From positions 1-55,072 of the forward strand of contig SKND01000199.1 of NCBI GenBank assembly GCA_007120695.1: a DNA stretch of 55,072 bases, written 5' to 3'. The DNA comes from Bacteroidales bacterium (lineage in GTDB: Bacteria > Bacteroidota > Bacteroidia > Bacteroidales > PUMT01). Positions 25,720 through 33,022 of this stretch are shown here, one piece after another (the stretch's first letter is position 1; every line of letters starts with the position of its first letter). A model generated the notes under the pieces. It had not been told where the DNA came from. It worked only from the letters and a program-made list of their open reading frames with translations, and searched no databases. Both the position numbers and the translations under genes were made by a program.

Positions 25720-26355
25720 ATGATTACGATGGAAAACGAAGCAGTAAAAATCCGTTACTCGAAACTGGCAGATGATGCCTGCTGTTTATCGTGCGGAGGA
25801 GCGCTGGAGAAGAGCAGCGCATCGCCCGGGGAGGTGTGTATTGATCTTGGAAGCGGTCGCGGAACAGATGTATTGAGACTGGCCGGTATAGTTGGATCAG
25901 AAGGGTTTGTATATGGTGTTGATGTAACGCCAGGGATGATCAGAAAAGGCAAATCTGCCGCTGAAAAGCTTGGTATTGACAATGCGGAGTTCCTGCAGTC
26001 GGAACTTACAGAGATACCACTCGAAAGTGAGACGGCAGATCTTGTAATTTCTAATTGTGTTATAAACCATGTTAGCCGCAAGGACCTGGTCTGGCAGGAG
26101 ATTTTCCGCCTCCTTAAAACCGGCGGGCGCTTTGTGGTTAGTGATATTTATTCGGTTAATCCGGTGTCTGATCAGTATAGCTCTGATCCGGAGGCCATTG
26201 CAGAGTGCTGGGCCGGAGCTGTCACCAAAAATGAGTATCTGGCCGGGGTCCGGCAGGCCGGTTTTAAAGATGTTGTCATTCTAGAGGAGAGCAAACCGTA
26301 TAAAAAAGGAGAGATTGAGGTTTGCAGTATTACCCTTTCGGGGAACAAGAGGTAA
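25720..26355 (+). CDS. class I SAM-dependent methyltransferase, arsenite methyltransferase (ArsM)-like
   Basis: 211 aa; 'DLGSGRGTDVLRLA', 'YGVDVTPGMI', 'VISNCVINHV', 'FVVSDIY', 'AECWAGA'; N-terminal 'DDACCLSCGG'. Confidence 0.75.
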   Translation: MITMENEAVKIRYSKLADDACCLSCGGALEKSSASPGEVCIDLGSGRGTDVLRLAGIVGSEGFVYGVDVTPGMIRKGKSAAEKLGIDNAEFLQSELTEIPLESETADLVISNCVINHVSRKDLVWQEIFRLLKTGGRFVVSDIYSVNPVSDQYSSDPEAIAECWAGAVTKNEYLAGVRQAGFKDVVILEESKPYKKGEIEVCSITLSGNKR

Positions 26356-26402: not shown

Positions 26403-26855
26403 ATGGACAGACTAGTTAACCAATTCAAAAATTATACTATGAAACAACTGGGTGTTTTAATGCTGTTTTTATCAGTGCTTGTTATAGTTTCGTGCGACAA
26501 GGATGAAGACGAGGTGTCAGACAGGTTCAGGTTTCTTACAAGCGTTGATTGGGAATCCGACAGCCTGCTTGTGAACGGGATGGAAGCAGGCGGCGATGGC
26601 CAGATGCTTGAAAACTTCAGGGGTACTGCCAGGTTTAACGAAGACGGAACAGGAAGTTTTGGAGGGATTACCGGCACGTGGGCGTTCTCACAGGATGAGA
26701 CCGAACTTATAATAAATACTGAAGAGTTGCCATTTGCCCTGACAACAAAAATTATTGAGCTGACTGCCTCATCACTCAAGGTCACGGCAAATTTTCCGAA
26801 CCCCTTAAATCCGGTAGATCAGCTTAAGATCAGAATGACATTCAAGGCACAATGA
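26403..26855 (+). CDS. small lipoprotein (lipocalin-like fold suspected)
   Basis: 150 aa; the second Met (MKQLGVLMLFLSVLVIVSCDKDEDE) gives a signal peptide and lipobox; overlaps the next gene by 4 bp. Confidence 0.7.
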   Translation: MDRLVNQFKNYTMKQLGVLMLFLSVLVIVSCDKDEDEVSDRFRFLTSVDWESDSLLVNGMEAGGDGQMLENFRGTARFNEDGTGSFGGITGTWAFSQDETELIINTEELPFALTTKIIELTASSLKVTANFPNPLNPVDQLKIRMTFKAQ

Positions 26856-29104
26856 TACCCCGTGTTTTCCCGGCTTTATTGCTGTTTGTTGCACTTTCAG
26901 TCAGCGCAGCAGATGTGCCGGGAATCATAGAGGGGAGAATATACGACAGGGAAACCGGTGAACCCCTTCCGCATGCAACAGTATTGTATGGCCGGAACCT
27001 GGGAACAACATCCGGTATTGACGGATTTTTCCTGCTAAGTATTGAATCCGGGCATCACGTGCTTACATTCAGGTATGTAGGGTACAGGACCATTACCCGC
27101 GCGGTTTCTGTAGCGCCCGGAGATACTGTGCTGGTGCAAGTGGGACTGGAACTGGATGCCGCTGAGATTGACCAGGTAGTGGTAAGTGCCGGTAAGATCG
27201 AGCAGCGTGTGTCAGAATTGACGGTTTCATTACACATCATAAAACCTGAAGTAATATCATCCTCCCATATTACCGATGCCACCGAACTGCTGAACAAAAC
27301 ACCCGGAATCGAGGTGATGGACGGCCAGGCTTCAATAAGAGGCGGCAGTGGCTATAGTTATGGTGCCGGCAGCAGGGTGCTGGCCCTTATCGACGGACTA
27401 CCTGTGCTTTCGGCTGACGCCGGGAATATAAAATGGCACTTTCTTCCGCTTGAAAATATCTCACAGGTAGAGGTAATAAAAGGTGCATCATCGGTTCTGT
27501 ACGGATCATCTGCACTAAACGGGGTAATTAATTTCAGGACAGCCCGTCCGGGTACCGAACCTGTCACCAGGTTCTACATTGAATCAGGCATGTTTGACCG
27601 GCCCCGTAACGATGAGTGGGTCTGGTGGGACTCCCCGAGGACTTACTCGAGTACCTCACTATCTCATTTGCAGCGTTCAGGCAACACCGATCTGGGGGCA
27701 TCAATCCATATTATGAATGATAACGGATACCGCCGGTTGAATGATGAGCGTCTTGGCAGGGCCAATGTGCTCATAAGACATGATGACCGCAAGGTGGATG
27801 GGCTCTCATACGGCACAACAATAAATGCCGGGTTAACAAAGAAAAGGGACTTTATTCTCTGGGAAAATGCTTGGACAGGTGCACTGAAACAGGATGAGTC
27901 TGCTGCCATGCAGATGACGGGTAGTCTTGTTACCATCGATCCCTATATTACTTTTAAAGGAGAAGGCGGATCACAGCATGATCTGCGTACCCGGTTCCAG
28001 GCTTCTGACAACGGTTTTACTGATGCAGTGCATAATGACAGCAGGGCAATATCACTTTATGCAGAATACCAGTACCGGCAAAAAATTTCTGACAGGATTG
28101 ATGTAAATGCCGGATTGCTGGAGAACTACAGCCGCATTGCTTCCGCTTTTTACGGAGATCATGATGCCCTTAATCTTGCCGGTTATATACAGGCCGACCT
28201 TACACCGGTCAGAAGGCTAAGGATGGTGGCAGGCCTGCGACTGGAATATAATTCCCTGAACGGCGAAGGCGACAGGCCGGTAGCTCTTTTCAGGGCAGGG
28301 ATAAATTACAGGGTTATGGATTACACGTTTCTGAGAGCCTCATTTGGCCAGGGATACAGGTATCCTTCCATTGCCGAGAAGCATGCTGCAACCACCGTGG
28401 GTTCGGTGCGGATTGTGCCTAATCCCGGCATAGTGCCTGAGTCAGGATGGAGTTCGGAACTTGGGCTCAAACAGGGGATATCGACAGGCAGTATCCTGGG
28501 GCAGATTGATATTGCACTCTTCTATTCAGAAAACAGCGATATGATTGAATATCTGTTTGGCATCTATCCTGTTGCGGGAGAGGAATATAGTAGTTTTGGC
28601 TTTATGGCCTCGAATGTTGAACAATCAAGGGTGTACGGCACTGAGATCGAGTTTGCTCTTTCCGCCCCGGCCGGGCAATTCACAAACTCGGTTACCGGCG
28701 GATATGTGTTCATGTATCCTGTTGAATTCAACCCCGATTCCGGCAAAGATACGGGTACCTACCTTAAATACAGACGTAAACACTCTGCAAAAATCAATTT
28801 TACCACCAGATTCCGGCGGTTTGAAATGGGAATCAGCATGCAGGCAGCATCTCCGGTACTGAATATTGATAAAGTGTTTTTAAGCGAACTGACACGGGAA
28901 ACAATCCTGCCTGGATTCTATGACTACTGGAATAACTCGGACAGGGGTTATTTCCTGGTTGATCCGCATTTTGGTTATTCACTAAGTGACCGGATAAAAA
29001 TCTCATTTGCCGTCAAAAATGCATTCAACACCGAATACATGGGACGTCCGGGTGATATTATGCCTCACCGGAATTTCAGCCTGCGCCTTACCGGGATCTT
29101 CTGA
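26852..29104 (+). CDS. TonB-dependent receptor with carboxypeptidase-like domain
   Basis: 750 aa; 'GIIEGRIYDRETGEPLPHATV', plug 'ELLNKTPGIEVMDGQASIRGGSGYSYGAGSRVLALIDGLPVLS', C-terminal barrel ending 'FSLRLTGIF'. Confidence 0.93.
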   Translation: MIPRVFPALLLFVALSVSAADVPGIIEGRIYDRETGEPLPHATVLYGRNLGTTSGIDGFFLLSIESGHHVLTFRYVGYRTITRAVSVAPGDTVLVQVGLELDAAEIDQVVVSAGKIEQRVSELTVSLHIIKPEVISSSHITDATELLNKTPGIEVMDGQASIRGGSGYSYGAGSRVLALIDGLPVLSADAGNIKWHFLPLENISQVEVIKGASSVLYGSSALNGVINFRTARPGTEPVTRFYIESGMFDRPRNDEWVWWDSPRTYSSTSLSHLQRSGNTDLGASIHIMNDNGYRRLNDERLGRANVLIRHDDRKVDGLSYGTTINAGLTKKRDFILWENAWTGALKQDESAAMQMTGSLVTIDPYITFKGEGGSQHDLRTRFQASDNGFTDAVHNDSRAISLYAEYQYRQKISDRIDVNAGLLENYSRIASAFYGDHDALNLAGYIQADLTPVRRLRMVAGLRLEYNSLNGEGDRPVALFRAGINYRVMDYTFLRASFGQGYRYPSIAEKHAATTVGSVRIVPNPGIVPESGWSSELGLKQGISTGSILGQIDIALFYSENSDMIEYLFGIYPVAGEEYSSFGFMASNVEQSRVYGTEIEFALSAPAGQFTNSVTGGYVFMYPVEFNPDSGKDTGTYLKYRRKHSAKINFTTRFRRFEMGISMQAASPVLNIDKVFLSELTRETILPGFYDYWNNSDRGYFLVDPHFGYSLSDRIKISFAVKNAFNTEYMGRPGDIMPHRNFSLRLTGIF

Positions 29105-29330: not shown

Positions 29331-29338
29331 TATATTTG
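29331..29338 (+). promoter_or_regulatory. candidate Bacteroidota -7 element (TATATTTG, consensus TAnnTTTG)
   Basis: Motif about 85 bp upstream of the small peptide ORF in the 318-bp gap after the TonB receptor; no clear -33 element. Confidence 0.35.
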
Positions 29339-29422: not shown

Positions 29423-29518
29423 ATGAAGAGTTTGACTGTAAAGAAGAAAGAGGAGATAAAAGAACAGGCACAGTGCTGTGCCAAAAAATCAAAAATCGTG
29501 GCAGGCTGCCATGATTGA
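29423..29518 (+). CDS. candidate RiPP precursor peptide, Cys-containing (31 aa)
   Basis: MKSLTVKKKEEIKEQAQCCAKKSKIVAGCHD; charged N-terminal part and CC...C tail, about 90 bp upstream of the SPASM maturase; absent from the supplied ORF list because of its size. Confidence 0.55.
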   Translation: MKSLTVKKKEEIKEQAQCCAKKSKIVAGCHD

Positions 29519-29610: not shown

Positions 29611-30996
29611 GTGAAACAAGAGGCAGTAATAAAACTGACTTCACCGGTTGATACAGGTTTGTTCAATATGATCTTTTCCGGCAAAATGGAACTATCCAGG
29701 TTTAATATTATATCGGAGATCAAAGATTCTGATCACTGTTTTATAATTAATTCCCTTTACGGGAGTGCTGATATTATAGACAAGGATACCTGCAATGCCC
29801 TCCTTACGGGGAAGGCATCGGGTGAAGAGTTATCTGCAAAGGGGTACCTGGTTGACCCCGAAAATGAGAAGGCCGCATTCCGGACAGCATACCTCAGGTT
29901 CATAGATGAAAGAGATAACGATGAGATCCAGCTCTTTTTTGTGCCGGGCTACAGTTGCAATTTTAATTGTTCCTATTGTTACCAGGGTAAATACGAGAGA
30001 ATGGCCGGGGGGCTGACCAGGGAGATAACAGATGCTTTCTTCAGGCATACTGACATTGAATTCGCAGGCAGGCGCAGGTATATAACTATTTTTGGGGGAG
30101 AGCCCCTGCTTAATGGCGGGCATCATCGTGAAAACATAAGGTACATAATTGAATGTGCTGCTGAAAGGAATATACAAATAGCAATAGTTACCAACGGTTA
30201 TCATATTTCTGAGTATATGGACCTGATGAAGAAGTCCACTATACGTGAGATCCAGGTGACCCTTGACGGGCCCCGGGAGGTGCACGACAAACGGCGAACC
30301 CTGAAAAACGGTGAAGGTACATTTGACAGGATAGCTGAAGGAGTAGAATTGCTTCTGAAAAATGATATTCCTGTCAATCTGAGGATGGTGGCCGACAGGG
30401 ATAATATTGACAGCCTTCCTGCACTCGCGCAGTTTGCAATTGACAGGAAATGGACATCCTGCGGGCACTTTAGTACCCAGATAGGCAGGAATTATGAGCT
30501 GCACGATTGCCAGGTAGAGACGACTGGACGGCTGTTTTCACGCATCGAGATGTACAGCGAACTTTACAGGCTTATAAAAAAGTATCCCCATATACTGGAA
30601 TTTCATAGGCCGGCTTTTGCTGTTTCAAGGGCATTGTATGAGAGCGGGGAACTGCCTCCGCCACTTTTCGATGCATGTCCGGGAACCAAGACTGAATGGG
30701 CCTTTGATTACCGGGGTAATATTTATGCATGTACTGCTACAGTTGGTAAAAAAGGGGAGGAGCTGGGCGTGTTTTTCCCCGAAAGGGAAATGTATAAGGA
30801 TAAGATTGAGGAGTGGGAGGAGAGGGATATTCTTTCTATAAAGGAGTGTAGCGAGTGCAACCTTGGCCTGATATGCGGAGGCGGTTGTGCCTCAGTGGCC
30901 AGGAACCGGACCGGTTGTAACGGGAGTCCCGATTGCCGTCCGGTAAAAGAGCTTCTGGAATTAGGTATAGCGGCTTATTTCCCTGAGGATTCTTAA
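29611..30996 (+). CDS. radical SAM/SPASM domain peptide maturase
   Basis: 461 aa (GTG start); 'GYSCNFNCSYCYQGKY', 'TIFGGEPLLN', SPASM-type Cys motif 'CPGTKTEWAFDYRGNIYACTATVGK...CSECNLGLICGGGCASVARNRTGCNGSPDC'. Confidence 0.88.
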   Translation: MKQEAVIKLTSPVDTGLFNMIFSGKMELSRFNIISEIKDSDHCFIINSLYGSADIIDKDTCNALLTGKASGEELSAKGYLVDPENEKAAFRTAYLRFIDERDNDEIQLFFVPGYSCNFNCSYCYQGKYERMAGGLTREITDAFFRHTDIEFAGRRRYITIFGGEPLLNGGHHRENIRYIIECAAERNIQIAIVTNGYHISEYMDLMKKSTIREIQVTLDGPREVHDKRRTLKNGEGTFDRIAEGVELLLKNDIPVNLRMVADRDNIDSLPALAQFAIDRKWTSCGHFSTQIGRNYELHDCQVETTGRLFSRIEMYSELYRLIKKYPHILEFHRPAFAVSRALYESGELPPPLFDACPGTKTEWAFDYRGNIYACTATVGKKGEELGVFFPEREMYKDKIEEWEERDILSIKECSECNLGLICGGGCASVARNRTGCNGSPDCRPVKELLELGIAAYFPEDS

Positions 30997-31073: not shown

Positions 31074-32342
31074 ATGCAGGAAATTAGCGCTAAAGAATTC
31101 GACGATGTTATCAGCAGCGAAAAACCGGTGCTGGTTGATTTTTACTCCACTGAATGTCCTCCCTGTGATGCACTGGCTCCTAAACTTGAGAGCCTGGAGA
31201 AACTTTTCAGCGAGGATGTAACTTTTGTTAAGATCTTCAGGCAGGGTAACAGGGATCTGGCTGATAAGCTGGGGGTCAAATCATCGCCCACCCTGCTTTT
31301 TTATGAGGATGGCAGGGAGGTGTGTCAGCGGCTTTCCGGAGGTATTAAGCGTTCTGAGATAATCCGAGAGATACGTCATGTGGCCGGCAAAGAAAAGACT
31401 GACAAATTACTGGCCGGTTTAAAGCCTGTTGTTACAAATACTGATGTGGCGGTACTGGGCGCCGGCCCCGGAGGACTCACTGCGGGATTGTACCTGTGCC
31501 AGGCCAAGATAGACACTACCCTTATCGACATTGCTTTGCCTGGCGGATATGTGGCTACAACCCATATGGTTTCGAATTATCCGGGTTTTATAGAGCCACA
31601 GCCGGGATATATGCTTTCACACAACATGTCAGAACAGACAAAAAGATGCGGAACCATATACAAGGTAGCCGTTGATGTGACTAAAGTCGACCTGGTCAGG
31701 AAAGAGATAGTAATTGATGATTACGAGACAATAAAGGCCAAAAAGATAGTTATCGCAACGGGTACTTCTCCGCGAAAGCTTAATATTCCAGGTGAGCAGG
31801 AGTTTATGGGTAAGGGTATTTCATATTGTGCTACGTGCGATGCCAAATATTTTGAGGACAAGGAGGTTATTGTTATAGGTGGCGGAAATTCGGCTGTTGA
31901 GGAGTCTGCATTTATCTCAAAGTTTGCGTCAAAAATTACTGTCGTTCATCAGTTCGATAAACTACAGGCAAACAAGGAGGCGCAGGAAAAAGCTTTTGCC
32001 GATAAAAAAATGTCGTTCCTTTTTGAACATGAACCCCGGTCGTTCATGCGCAAAGGTGACAAGATGGAGGTTGAAGTTGAGGAGCTTAAAACCGGAAAGC
32101 GTAAAGTGCTGACAGCCGACGGGGTATTTGTTTTTGTAGGACTGATTCCCAACCTTACGATATTTACAGATAAAATGGAGACTGATCAGTGGGGTTACAT
32201 AAAGGTAAATGAAGACATGCAGACCAGCATTGAGGGGGTTTATTCAGTTGGCGACATAAACAGTAAAAAATACCGCCAGATAACCACGGCAGTTGCAGAT
32301 GGCACGATAGCTGCCATATCTATTACAAAGGAGATGGATTAG
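31074..32342 (+). CDS. thioredoxin-thioredoxin reductase fusion (FAD-dependent oxidoreductase)
   Basis: 422 aa; N-terminal Trx 'VLVDFYSTECPPCDALAPKLESL', then 'VAVLGAGPGGLTAGLYL', redox-active 'CATCDAKYF', 'VIGGGNSAVEES', C-terminal 'GVYSVGDINSKKYRQITTAVADG'. Confidence 0.92.
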   Translation: MQEISAKEFDDVISSEKPVLVDFYSTECPPCDALAPKLESLEKLFSEDVTFVKIFRQGNRDLADKLGVKSSPTLLFYEDGREVCQRLSGGIKRSEIIREIRHVAGKEKTDKLLAGLKPVVTNTDVAVLGAGPGGLTAGLYLCQAKIDTTLIDIALPGGYVATTHMVSNYPGFIEPQPGYMLSHNMSEQTKRCGTIYKVAVDVTKVDLVRKEIVIDDYETIKAKKIVIATGTSPRKLNIPGEQEFMGKGISYCATCDAKYFEDKEVIVIGGGNSAVEESAFISKFASKITVVHQFDKLQANKEAQEKAFADKKMSFLFEHEPRSFMRKGDKMEVEVEELKTGKRKVLTADGVFVFVGLIPNLTIFTDKMETDQWGYIKVNEDMQTSIEGVYSVGDINSKKYRQITTAVADGTIAAISITKEMD

Positions 32343-32353
32343 CAGCGGGGTCA

Positions 32354-33022
32354 TTAGCCGGAATGGAGCTTTTGCAGGAGCAGATCCAGCATTTTTCCCA
32401 GTCCCCGATCCGGATGAACCTCCTTTACCGGTGACAGGCCCAGAAGGCTGGTTCTTGCTTTATTAATCATATCCAGGTTTATTTGCTTCCTGTCGCAATT
32501 ATTGCAGTAGCATAAAACAGCAATTGCACTTTTGAGGGTTTCTGATCTGACCCTGACCGTGCAGTTGGAATAACGGCCCGGGTGAATATGGATATGACGG
32601 CCCGGAATTTTACCGGGAAGTAATACCCAGACTGAGCCGTCACTAAGCGTGGTTGCCCGGTACGATGATCCGGCTGAACTGATCCATTGCAGGTATTCCT
32701 TTTCTCCCAGGATGTTTAGGCGTCTGAAATACCCGGTCATCTCCCTTGCAATTTGCTCCGGCGAGAGATAGCCTGTGTAAAAATCCATTTGCGAATTTCC
32801 AATTACAATGAGATCCTCCATGAGATTCAGGGCTGACCCTGATTCATTCACGGCATCAGGGTTTTTTGGCCCGGGTAATCCGGTTTTCCTTCCGGCAGGC
32901 TCTTCCCGGTTTCTGAAAGTCCTGATGAATTCAGCCACATACCCTGCATGATGCTTCAGGCTGCTGAACAGGAACGGCGCCGGTACATAATATTTAGATG
33001 TGATTCTTTGTGTTGAAAACAT
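32354..33022 (-). CDS. conserved-looking hypothetical protein
   Basis: 222 aa; 'SDGSVWVLLPGKIPGRHIHIHPGRYSNCTVRVRSETLKSAIAVL'; no family recognised. Confidence 0.65.
   Translation of the reverse strand: MFSTQRITSKYYVPAPFLFSSLKHHAGYVAEFIRTFRNREEPAGRKTGLPGPKNPDAVNESGSALNLMEDLIVIGNSQMDFYTGYLSPEQIAREMTGYFRRLNILGEKEYLQWISSAGSSYRATTLSDGSVWVLLPGKIPGRHIHIHPGRYSNCTVRVRSETLKSAIAVLCYCNNCDRKQINLDMINKARTSLLGLSPVKEVHPDRGLGKMLDLLLQKLHSG

Follow-up and report, generated by a model that had tools for sequence, protein, structure and literature searches.

The locus raises the question whether a very short, cysteine-containing open reading frame upstream of a radical SAM/SPASM gene encodes the substrate of this enzyme and, if so, which role a modified peptide of this kind might play for the cell. 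The window, by which we mean the whole analyzed stretch of 55,072 nucleotides, contains the following features that are relevant for the answer:

25720 to 26355, plus strand: short ArsM-like SAM methyltransferase of 211 amino acids with the motifs CCLSCGGA...ISNC...AECWAGA
26403 to 26855, plus strand: small lipoprotein-like gene (cluster LP) without Pfam match, found in the genus of the window
26852 to 29104, plus strand: TonB-dependent receptor between methyltransferase and peptide, found in the genus of the window
29331 to 29338, plus strand: TATATTTG, by its sequence a candidate -7 element (Bacteroidota type) for an internal promoter
29423 to 29518, plus strand: putative precursor peptide gene, 31 amino acids, with the leader MKSL plus a Lys-rich linker and the core AQCCAKKSKIVAGCHD
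29686 to 30996, plus strand: radical SAM/SPASM maturase of 436 amino acids with CxxxCxxC, the seven cysteines of SPASM and, at the N-terminus, an RRE-like domain
31074 to 32342, plus strand: thioredoxin::thioredoxin reductase fusion (Trx::TrxR) with the active-site motifs CPPC and CATC

The initial annotation had described the frame at 29423-29518 as an unannotated Cys-containing peptide of 31 amino acids, and translation from ATG to TGA indeed recovers exactly this peptide, MKSLTVKKKEEIKEQAQCCAKKSKIVAGCHD followed by the stop. A short frame with three cysteines is unremarkable on its own, since 10 of the 359 ATG-started frames of 20-60 amino acids in the window possess at least three Cys among their last 16 residues. 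The whole case therefore depends on conservation.

When 60 related genomes were searched for the maturase, 16 of them, including the genome of the window itself, gave a match with E <1e-160, and the next-best match had an E-value of 3e-21, a gap which gives the maturase family a clean edge. At all 16 loci, a peptide of 31-35 amino acids ending with GCHD is encoded upstream of the maturase gene. A scan of a collection with one genome per species yielded 383 stretches encoding a relative of the maturase, of which the best 80 were examined. The titles of these 80 name Bacteroidota, Spirochaetota, Ignavibacteria, Neomarinimicrobiota and one deltaproteobacterium, but single taxon labels may be wrong, since the contigs are nearly all metagenome bins. 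L102 stems from a cultured isolate of the Marinilabiliaceae. A homologous peptide is encoded just upstream of the maturase in 79 of these best 80 contigs; 77 were identified by a simple pattern and two more start with GTG. The remaining contig (L080) possesses no peptide at the maturase locus, but a copy is present elsewhere in the same genome. The initial annotation had named orthologous maturase loci without a conserved Cys peptide as the observation that would speak against it; applied to these loci, this check did not refute the proposal. Because the frame recurs at orthologous loci, it is not a product of chance.

The core of the peptide comprises 17 residues, xAQCCAKxSxxxxGCHD, and its length is constant across 80 peptides. 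The residues A, C, C, A, K, S, G, C and H are invariant (80/80), and Q and D are present in 79 of 80. The spacing of the cysteines, which had been proposed as a check, is as invariant at the maturase loci as their number. The leader starts with MKSL or a similar sequence and continues with a Lys-rich linker of variable length, and the distance between peptide and maturase ranges from overlap up to about 1 kb. As variants, we observed a duplicated AQCCA stretch (L089), an additional CC within the leader (L015) and an end with GCHN instead of GCHD (L092). The differences per pair at the codon positions 1, 2 and 3 of the peptide genes amount to 2.05, 1.93 and 8.73, and the peptide is under purifying selection at the amino-acid level.

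Some other elements of the region were also considered. The TAnnTTTG-like motif reported upstream of the peptide is present as TATATTTG at 29331-29338, but such motifs are not enriched in the family (12 of 77 loci compared to 9.5 expected by shuffling), and the idea of a shared promoter of this type was dropped. A reading of the UGA stop as selenocysteine was discarded as well, as the 77 peptide genes stop with TAA (54), TGA (14) or TAG (9). The interval between peptide and maturase has no significant RNA structure (z -0.9), and a consensus scan of the plus strand detected no intrinsic terminator.

The presence of the peptide is tightly coupled to that of the maturase. Among 198 genomes of the order to which the window belongs, 24 possess both, one (G052) possesses only the peptide and 173 possess neither (Fisher p 5e-30, uncorrected for shared descent). 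In a sample of 295 genomes of the class, peptide and maturase, each at full length, are carried by the same three genomes, and within the 60 relatives both occur together in 16, with G052 again possessing the peptide only. Such a nearly perfect co-occurrence is the pattern expected of an enzyme and its substrate. The peptide, judged by these comparisons, is the partner of the maturase, very probably as its substrate, and a candidate for modification. The corresponding proposal of the initial annotation gains support from the 79 of 80 loci and from all three genome samples. A short encoded precursor conserved together with a modifying enzyme is what characterizes a RiPP system, and we consider it likely that the peptide is the precursor, and the SPASM enzyme the cognate maturase, of an undescribed RiPP family.

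The genome G052, which is 99% complete, contains a well conserved peptide without the maturase, the short methyltransferase or the Trx::TrxR fusion. Either the partner genes are absent from the assembly or the peptide is able to serve alone. This orphan peptide, MKTLIKKKEIAPKAKVAQCCAKISKTVAGCHD, is located at L111:8296-8394 (G052:C3:120298-120393) and lies next to genes for a second-type methyltransferase, DsrE/HdrA/HdrC-like proteins, a 1-Cys-type peroxiredoxin, a regulator of the Fur family and a stand-alone TrxR. The cassette is split in the genome of L080: one contig, L117 (G352:C13), has the order methyltransferase-peptide-SQR-like...TonB-NifX-like-DUF1847-like, and another contig carries maturase-Trx::TrxR. 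The relocated peptide directly follows the short ArsM-like methyltransferase.

The maturase gene is located downstream of the peptide on the same strand, as had been stated, but the distance of approximately 90 bp given in the initial annotation has to be revised. The listed frame starts with GTG at 29611, about 92 bp past the peptide stop; however, this start lacks support by homologues, which align from MELSRFN at the ATG at position 29686. The gap therefore most probably measures 167 bp and the enzyme 436 amino acids. CxxxCxxC and the seven-Cys SPASM motif, which define a SPASM maturase, are both present, and the cysteines C116, C120, C123, C356, C374, C413, C416, C422, C426 and C442 (numbering of the GTG-started frame) are invariant in 79 of 79 sequences. 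An AlphaFold model built from 56 sequences (mean pLDDT 91.5) replaced an earlier one from 13 sequences (pLDDT 61). Its first 80 residues fold into three strands and three helices (beta3-alpha3) as in RRE domains, and it aligns nearly over the full length to CteB. According to this model, the maturase is a putative RRE-SPASM enzyme. CteB is also the best match in the PDB, whether sequence profiles (5WGG, E 5e-19) or folds (5WHY, E 5e-18, TM 0.67-0.69, 17% identity) are compared. The closest relatives of the maturase are CteB, CefB and PapB. The curated cut-offs are not reached for SCIFF (TIGR03974, 78 of 425 bits), PapB (NF047865, 109 of 340 bits), CefB (NF038107, 153 of 600 bits), TIGR04463 (138 of 525 bits) and Clo7bot (TIGR04334, 120 of 600 bits). 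CefB and TIGR04463 are the best NCBIfam matches and are matched by all 56 members of the maturase family.

By homology to these enzymes, the maturase would bind the MKSL.../Lys-rich leader via its N-terminal RRE-like domain and would oxidize the core AQCCAKxSxxxxGCHD by 5'-deoxyadenosyl radical chemistry with the help of two auxiliary FeS clusters. Since CteB is a thioether-forming maturase with an RRE, a Cys-based cross-link is to be expected, and by analogy to CteB and PapB the formation of one Cys thioether appears most likely. Within CXnD motifs, PapB links Cys with Asp and accepts n=0-6 (PMC9413430), and the GCHD of the core represents a CX1D motif with a spacing within this accepted set. 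Cys29 and Asp31 of GCHD are thus the best-placed pair, and a thioether between them is our leading, though tentative, proposal. It is weakened by the replacement of the supposed acceptor Asp by Asn in one of 80 peptides (L092). Such a link would leave Cys18 and Cys19 as a vicinal dithiol with free CC thiols.

Two further genes, which the initial annotation had not recognized as partners, belong to the conserved surroundings of peptide and maturase. The Trx::TrxR fusion is located close to the 3' end of the maturase gene in 78 of 81 loci, sometimes with a DUF1847 gene in between. It is present, full-length or cut by the contig end, in 15 of the 16 maturase genomes among the 60 relatives and in none of the 44 others. 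G005, the 16th of these genomes, has a contig that breaks off at the site of the fusion gene, and in G047 the fusion is encoded on a different contig than the maturase. The gene for the short ArsM-like methyltransferase is found 5' of the peptide gene in 75 of 81 loci; in the genus of the window, the genes for the lipoprotein-like protein and the TonB receptor are inserted between the two. Thioredoxins, DUF1847, DUF302, DUF6132 and SQR-like flavoproteins are optional neighbours. A conserved 222-amino-acid protein encoded downstream at 32354-33022 (minus strand) occurs in 7 loci and has no Pfam or NCBIfam match.

Cys25, Cys113 and Cys163 of the short methyltransferase correspond by alignment to CmArsM Cys72, Cys174 and Cys224, and all three are present without exception (70 of 70 sequences). 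The CmArsM residues bind As(III) (PMC3877260), so that by alignment the operon methyltransferase retains every cysteine of this As(III) site. Its score with the ArsM model (PRK11873, NF008823) is 181 bits and thus below the cut-off of 263 bits. The canonical ArsM of the window's genome (269 amino acids, 329 bits) is encoded within an arsR-arsC-arsM-acr3-like operon, whose gene names except arsM were read by eye from the translations and which lies apart from the cassette on L115 (G000:C428). A link to arsenic via co-occurrence with the canonical ArsM was ruled out as evidence, since the latter is not associated with the maturase (6 of 16 compared to 11 of 44 genomes, p 0.35). In 55 of 70 short methyltransferases, comprising most orthologues beyond the genus of the window, the last seven residues form a Cys-rich tail with 2-4 Cys. 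The Spirochaetes loci L079, L089 and L094 possess a MarR-family regulator directly 5' of the methyltransferase gene, which in two of three cases carries a CC pair close to its N-terminus; a thiol- or metalloid-sensing control of the cassette by this regulator is possible.

Which function might the mature peptide have? None of the genes conserved across the 81 loci encodes an exporter, a leader protease or an immunity protein. The lack of a conserved exporter and protease together with the near-invariant core favours an intracellular role over that of an antibiotic, and the two dedicated enzymes for redox and methyl-transfer reactions are a further pointer in this direction. It is rather probable that the mature peptide acts inside the cell, as a ligand for thiols or soft elements or as a redox peptide, and not as an antibiotic.

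Within this frame, the peptide might be a carrier of electrons or sulfur, i.e. a peptide cofactor or low-molecular-weight thiol similar to PQQ or mycofactocin, that serves sulfide or thiol metabolism. This is a realistic possibility, short of being the probable one. The near-invariance of the core across phyla, the dedicated Trx::TrxR and the frequent co-location with thioredoxin, SQR-like, DUF302 and DUF1847 genes (as raw neighbour counts) are consistent with it, and the peptides of G052 and of the L080 genome adjoin DsrE/HdrA/HdrC-like and SQR-like genes. However, neither a conserved protease nor a client enzyme accompanies the peptide.

Somewhat more doubtful is a pathway that methylates arsenic (or a different soft element) or leads to organoarsenicals. 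In it, the three-Cys peptide, mature or unmodified, would deliver As(III)/MAs(III) to the ArsM-like enzyme as a thiolate, with the electrons for a reductive methylation coming from Trx::TrxR. ArsM-type enzymes are supported by thioredoxin systems, and the methyltransferase cysteines at the As(III)-binding positions as well as the exactly three invariant Cys of the peptide core fit such a pathway. A known organoarsenical pathway, that of arsinothricin (arsQML), also pairs ArsM with a radical SAM enzyme (PMC8552651). In contrast, no ars genes were found in the conserved neighbourhood of the cassette, the ars operon of the same genome is separate, an association with canonical ArsM is absent, many loci have sulfur-like gene neighbours, and a thioether would cost the peptide one of its thiols. 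A soft element is favoured by the methyltransferase cysteines, a role in redox or sulfur metabolism by the adjoining genes and the absence of linked ars genes.

Judged by gene context, Trx::TrxR would use NADPH to keep the dithiol of the peptide, or else the methyltransferase cysteines, in the reduced state, and the target of methylation by the ArsM-like enzyme would be an element or thiol that the peptide binds. This target would be arsenic according to the methyltransferase cysteines and a sulfur species according to the neighbour genes. In its most specific form, this proposal describes a peptide cofactor that ferries arsenic, another soft element or a methylatable thiol between the short ArsM-type methyltransferase and Trx::TrxR. 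We regard this form as a long shot. The missing clustered ars genes, the separate ars operon and the lack of association with canonical ArsM weaken the support for the proposed function as a whole. If true, it would tie a radical-SAM RiPP to the methylation of metalloids or sulfur species, for which we found no precedent.

A secreted antibiotic or signalling RiPP of the ranthipeptide type is unlikely, even though relatives of the maturase produce such peptides and a TonB receptor is part of the operon in the genus of the window, as the 81 loci lack the conserved exporter, leader protease and immunity genes and the core hardly varies, whereas most antagonistic peptides do. Very unlikely is also an unmodified binder of zinc or a soft metal beside a maturase with another target: the CCx9CH arrangement and weak matches to the BTK motif would be in line with it, but the co-occurrence with the maturase would then be hard to explain. 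Finally, a leader peptide that merely regulates the maturase as a Cys-codon attenuator, suggested by the upstream position and the tandem Cys codons, is hardly conceivable, since residues other than Cys (A, Q, A, K, S, G, H and D) are invariant while codons vary freely, the peptide occurs apart from the maturase in the L080 genome and in G052, and its distance to the maturase is so variable.

The view of the initial annotation that the core fits no familiar RiPP family agrees with a search of 28 peptides against Pfam-A and NCBIfam 20.0, which gave no convincing cover but chance-level matches and one weak type of match, the BTK motif, in 4 of the 28 (best E 0.0023), either a hint at metal binding or a chance Cys spacing. 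In open-licence PMC papers, where absence is no proof, nothing was found on this system of peptide, maturase, methyltransferase and TrxR; QCCAK occurs there in a snake-venom paper only, and neither GCHD nor CCAK nor thioredoxin appears in a survey of Bacteroidales RiPPs (PMC10352776). Apparently, this is an undescribed and widespread family of ribosomal peptide products with an unusual operon. Since the gene is very short and no family model exists, it is probably absent from most annotations. Relatives of the maturase are encoded on 383 stretches of the species-level genome collection, in Bacteroidota, Spirochaetota, Ignavibacteria and others.

A comparison with known systems helps to place the family. 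The operon methyltransferase shares the fold family and the positions of the As-binding Cys with ArsM (CmArsM; PRK11873), but a stretch of about 30 residues that lies between the cysteines of CC and GCG is missing, as is the C-terminal end; it is shorter than the genome's own ArsM (211 compared to 269 amino acids) and mostly carries a Cys-rich tail. With CteA/CteB (SCIFF), the window maturase has the architecture of radical SAM and SPASM, preceded by a predicted RRE, in common, but the identity in the fold match is only 17%, the SCIFF HMM stays far under its cut-off, and the precursor has three core Cys instead of the six indicated by the SCIFF family name. The PapA/PapB ranthipeptides also have a related maturase (109 of 340 bits) and Cys and Asp in the core; however, the window core possesses a single GCHD and no CX3D repeats, and the PapB family HMM is not matched at its cut-off. 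The Cys spacing CCx9C likewise differs from the Cys-every-fifth pattern of the CefB family. In PQQ and mycofactocin, a SPASM maturase is paired with a precursor that is short and near-invariant, and the spread of these systems is housekeeping-like; by analogy, the system described here shares these properties. It differs from them in having no homologous precursor, no later-step genes that we could see and a core without aromatic residues except His. Its core, almost fixed across phyla, suggests a basic function within the cell and not warfare, similar to PQQ and mycofactocin.
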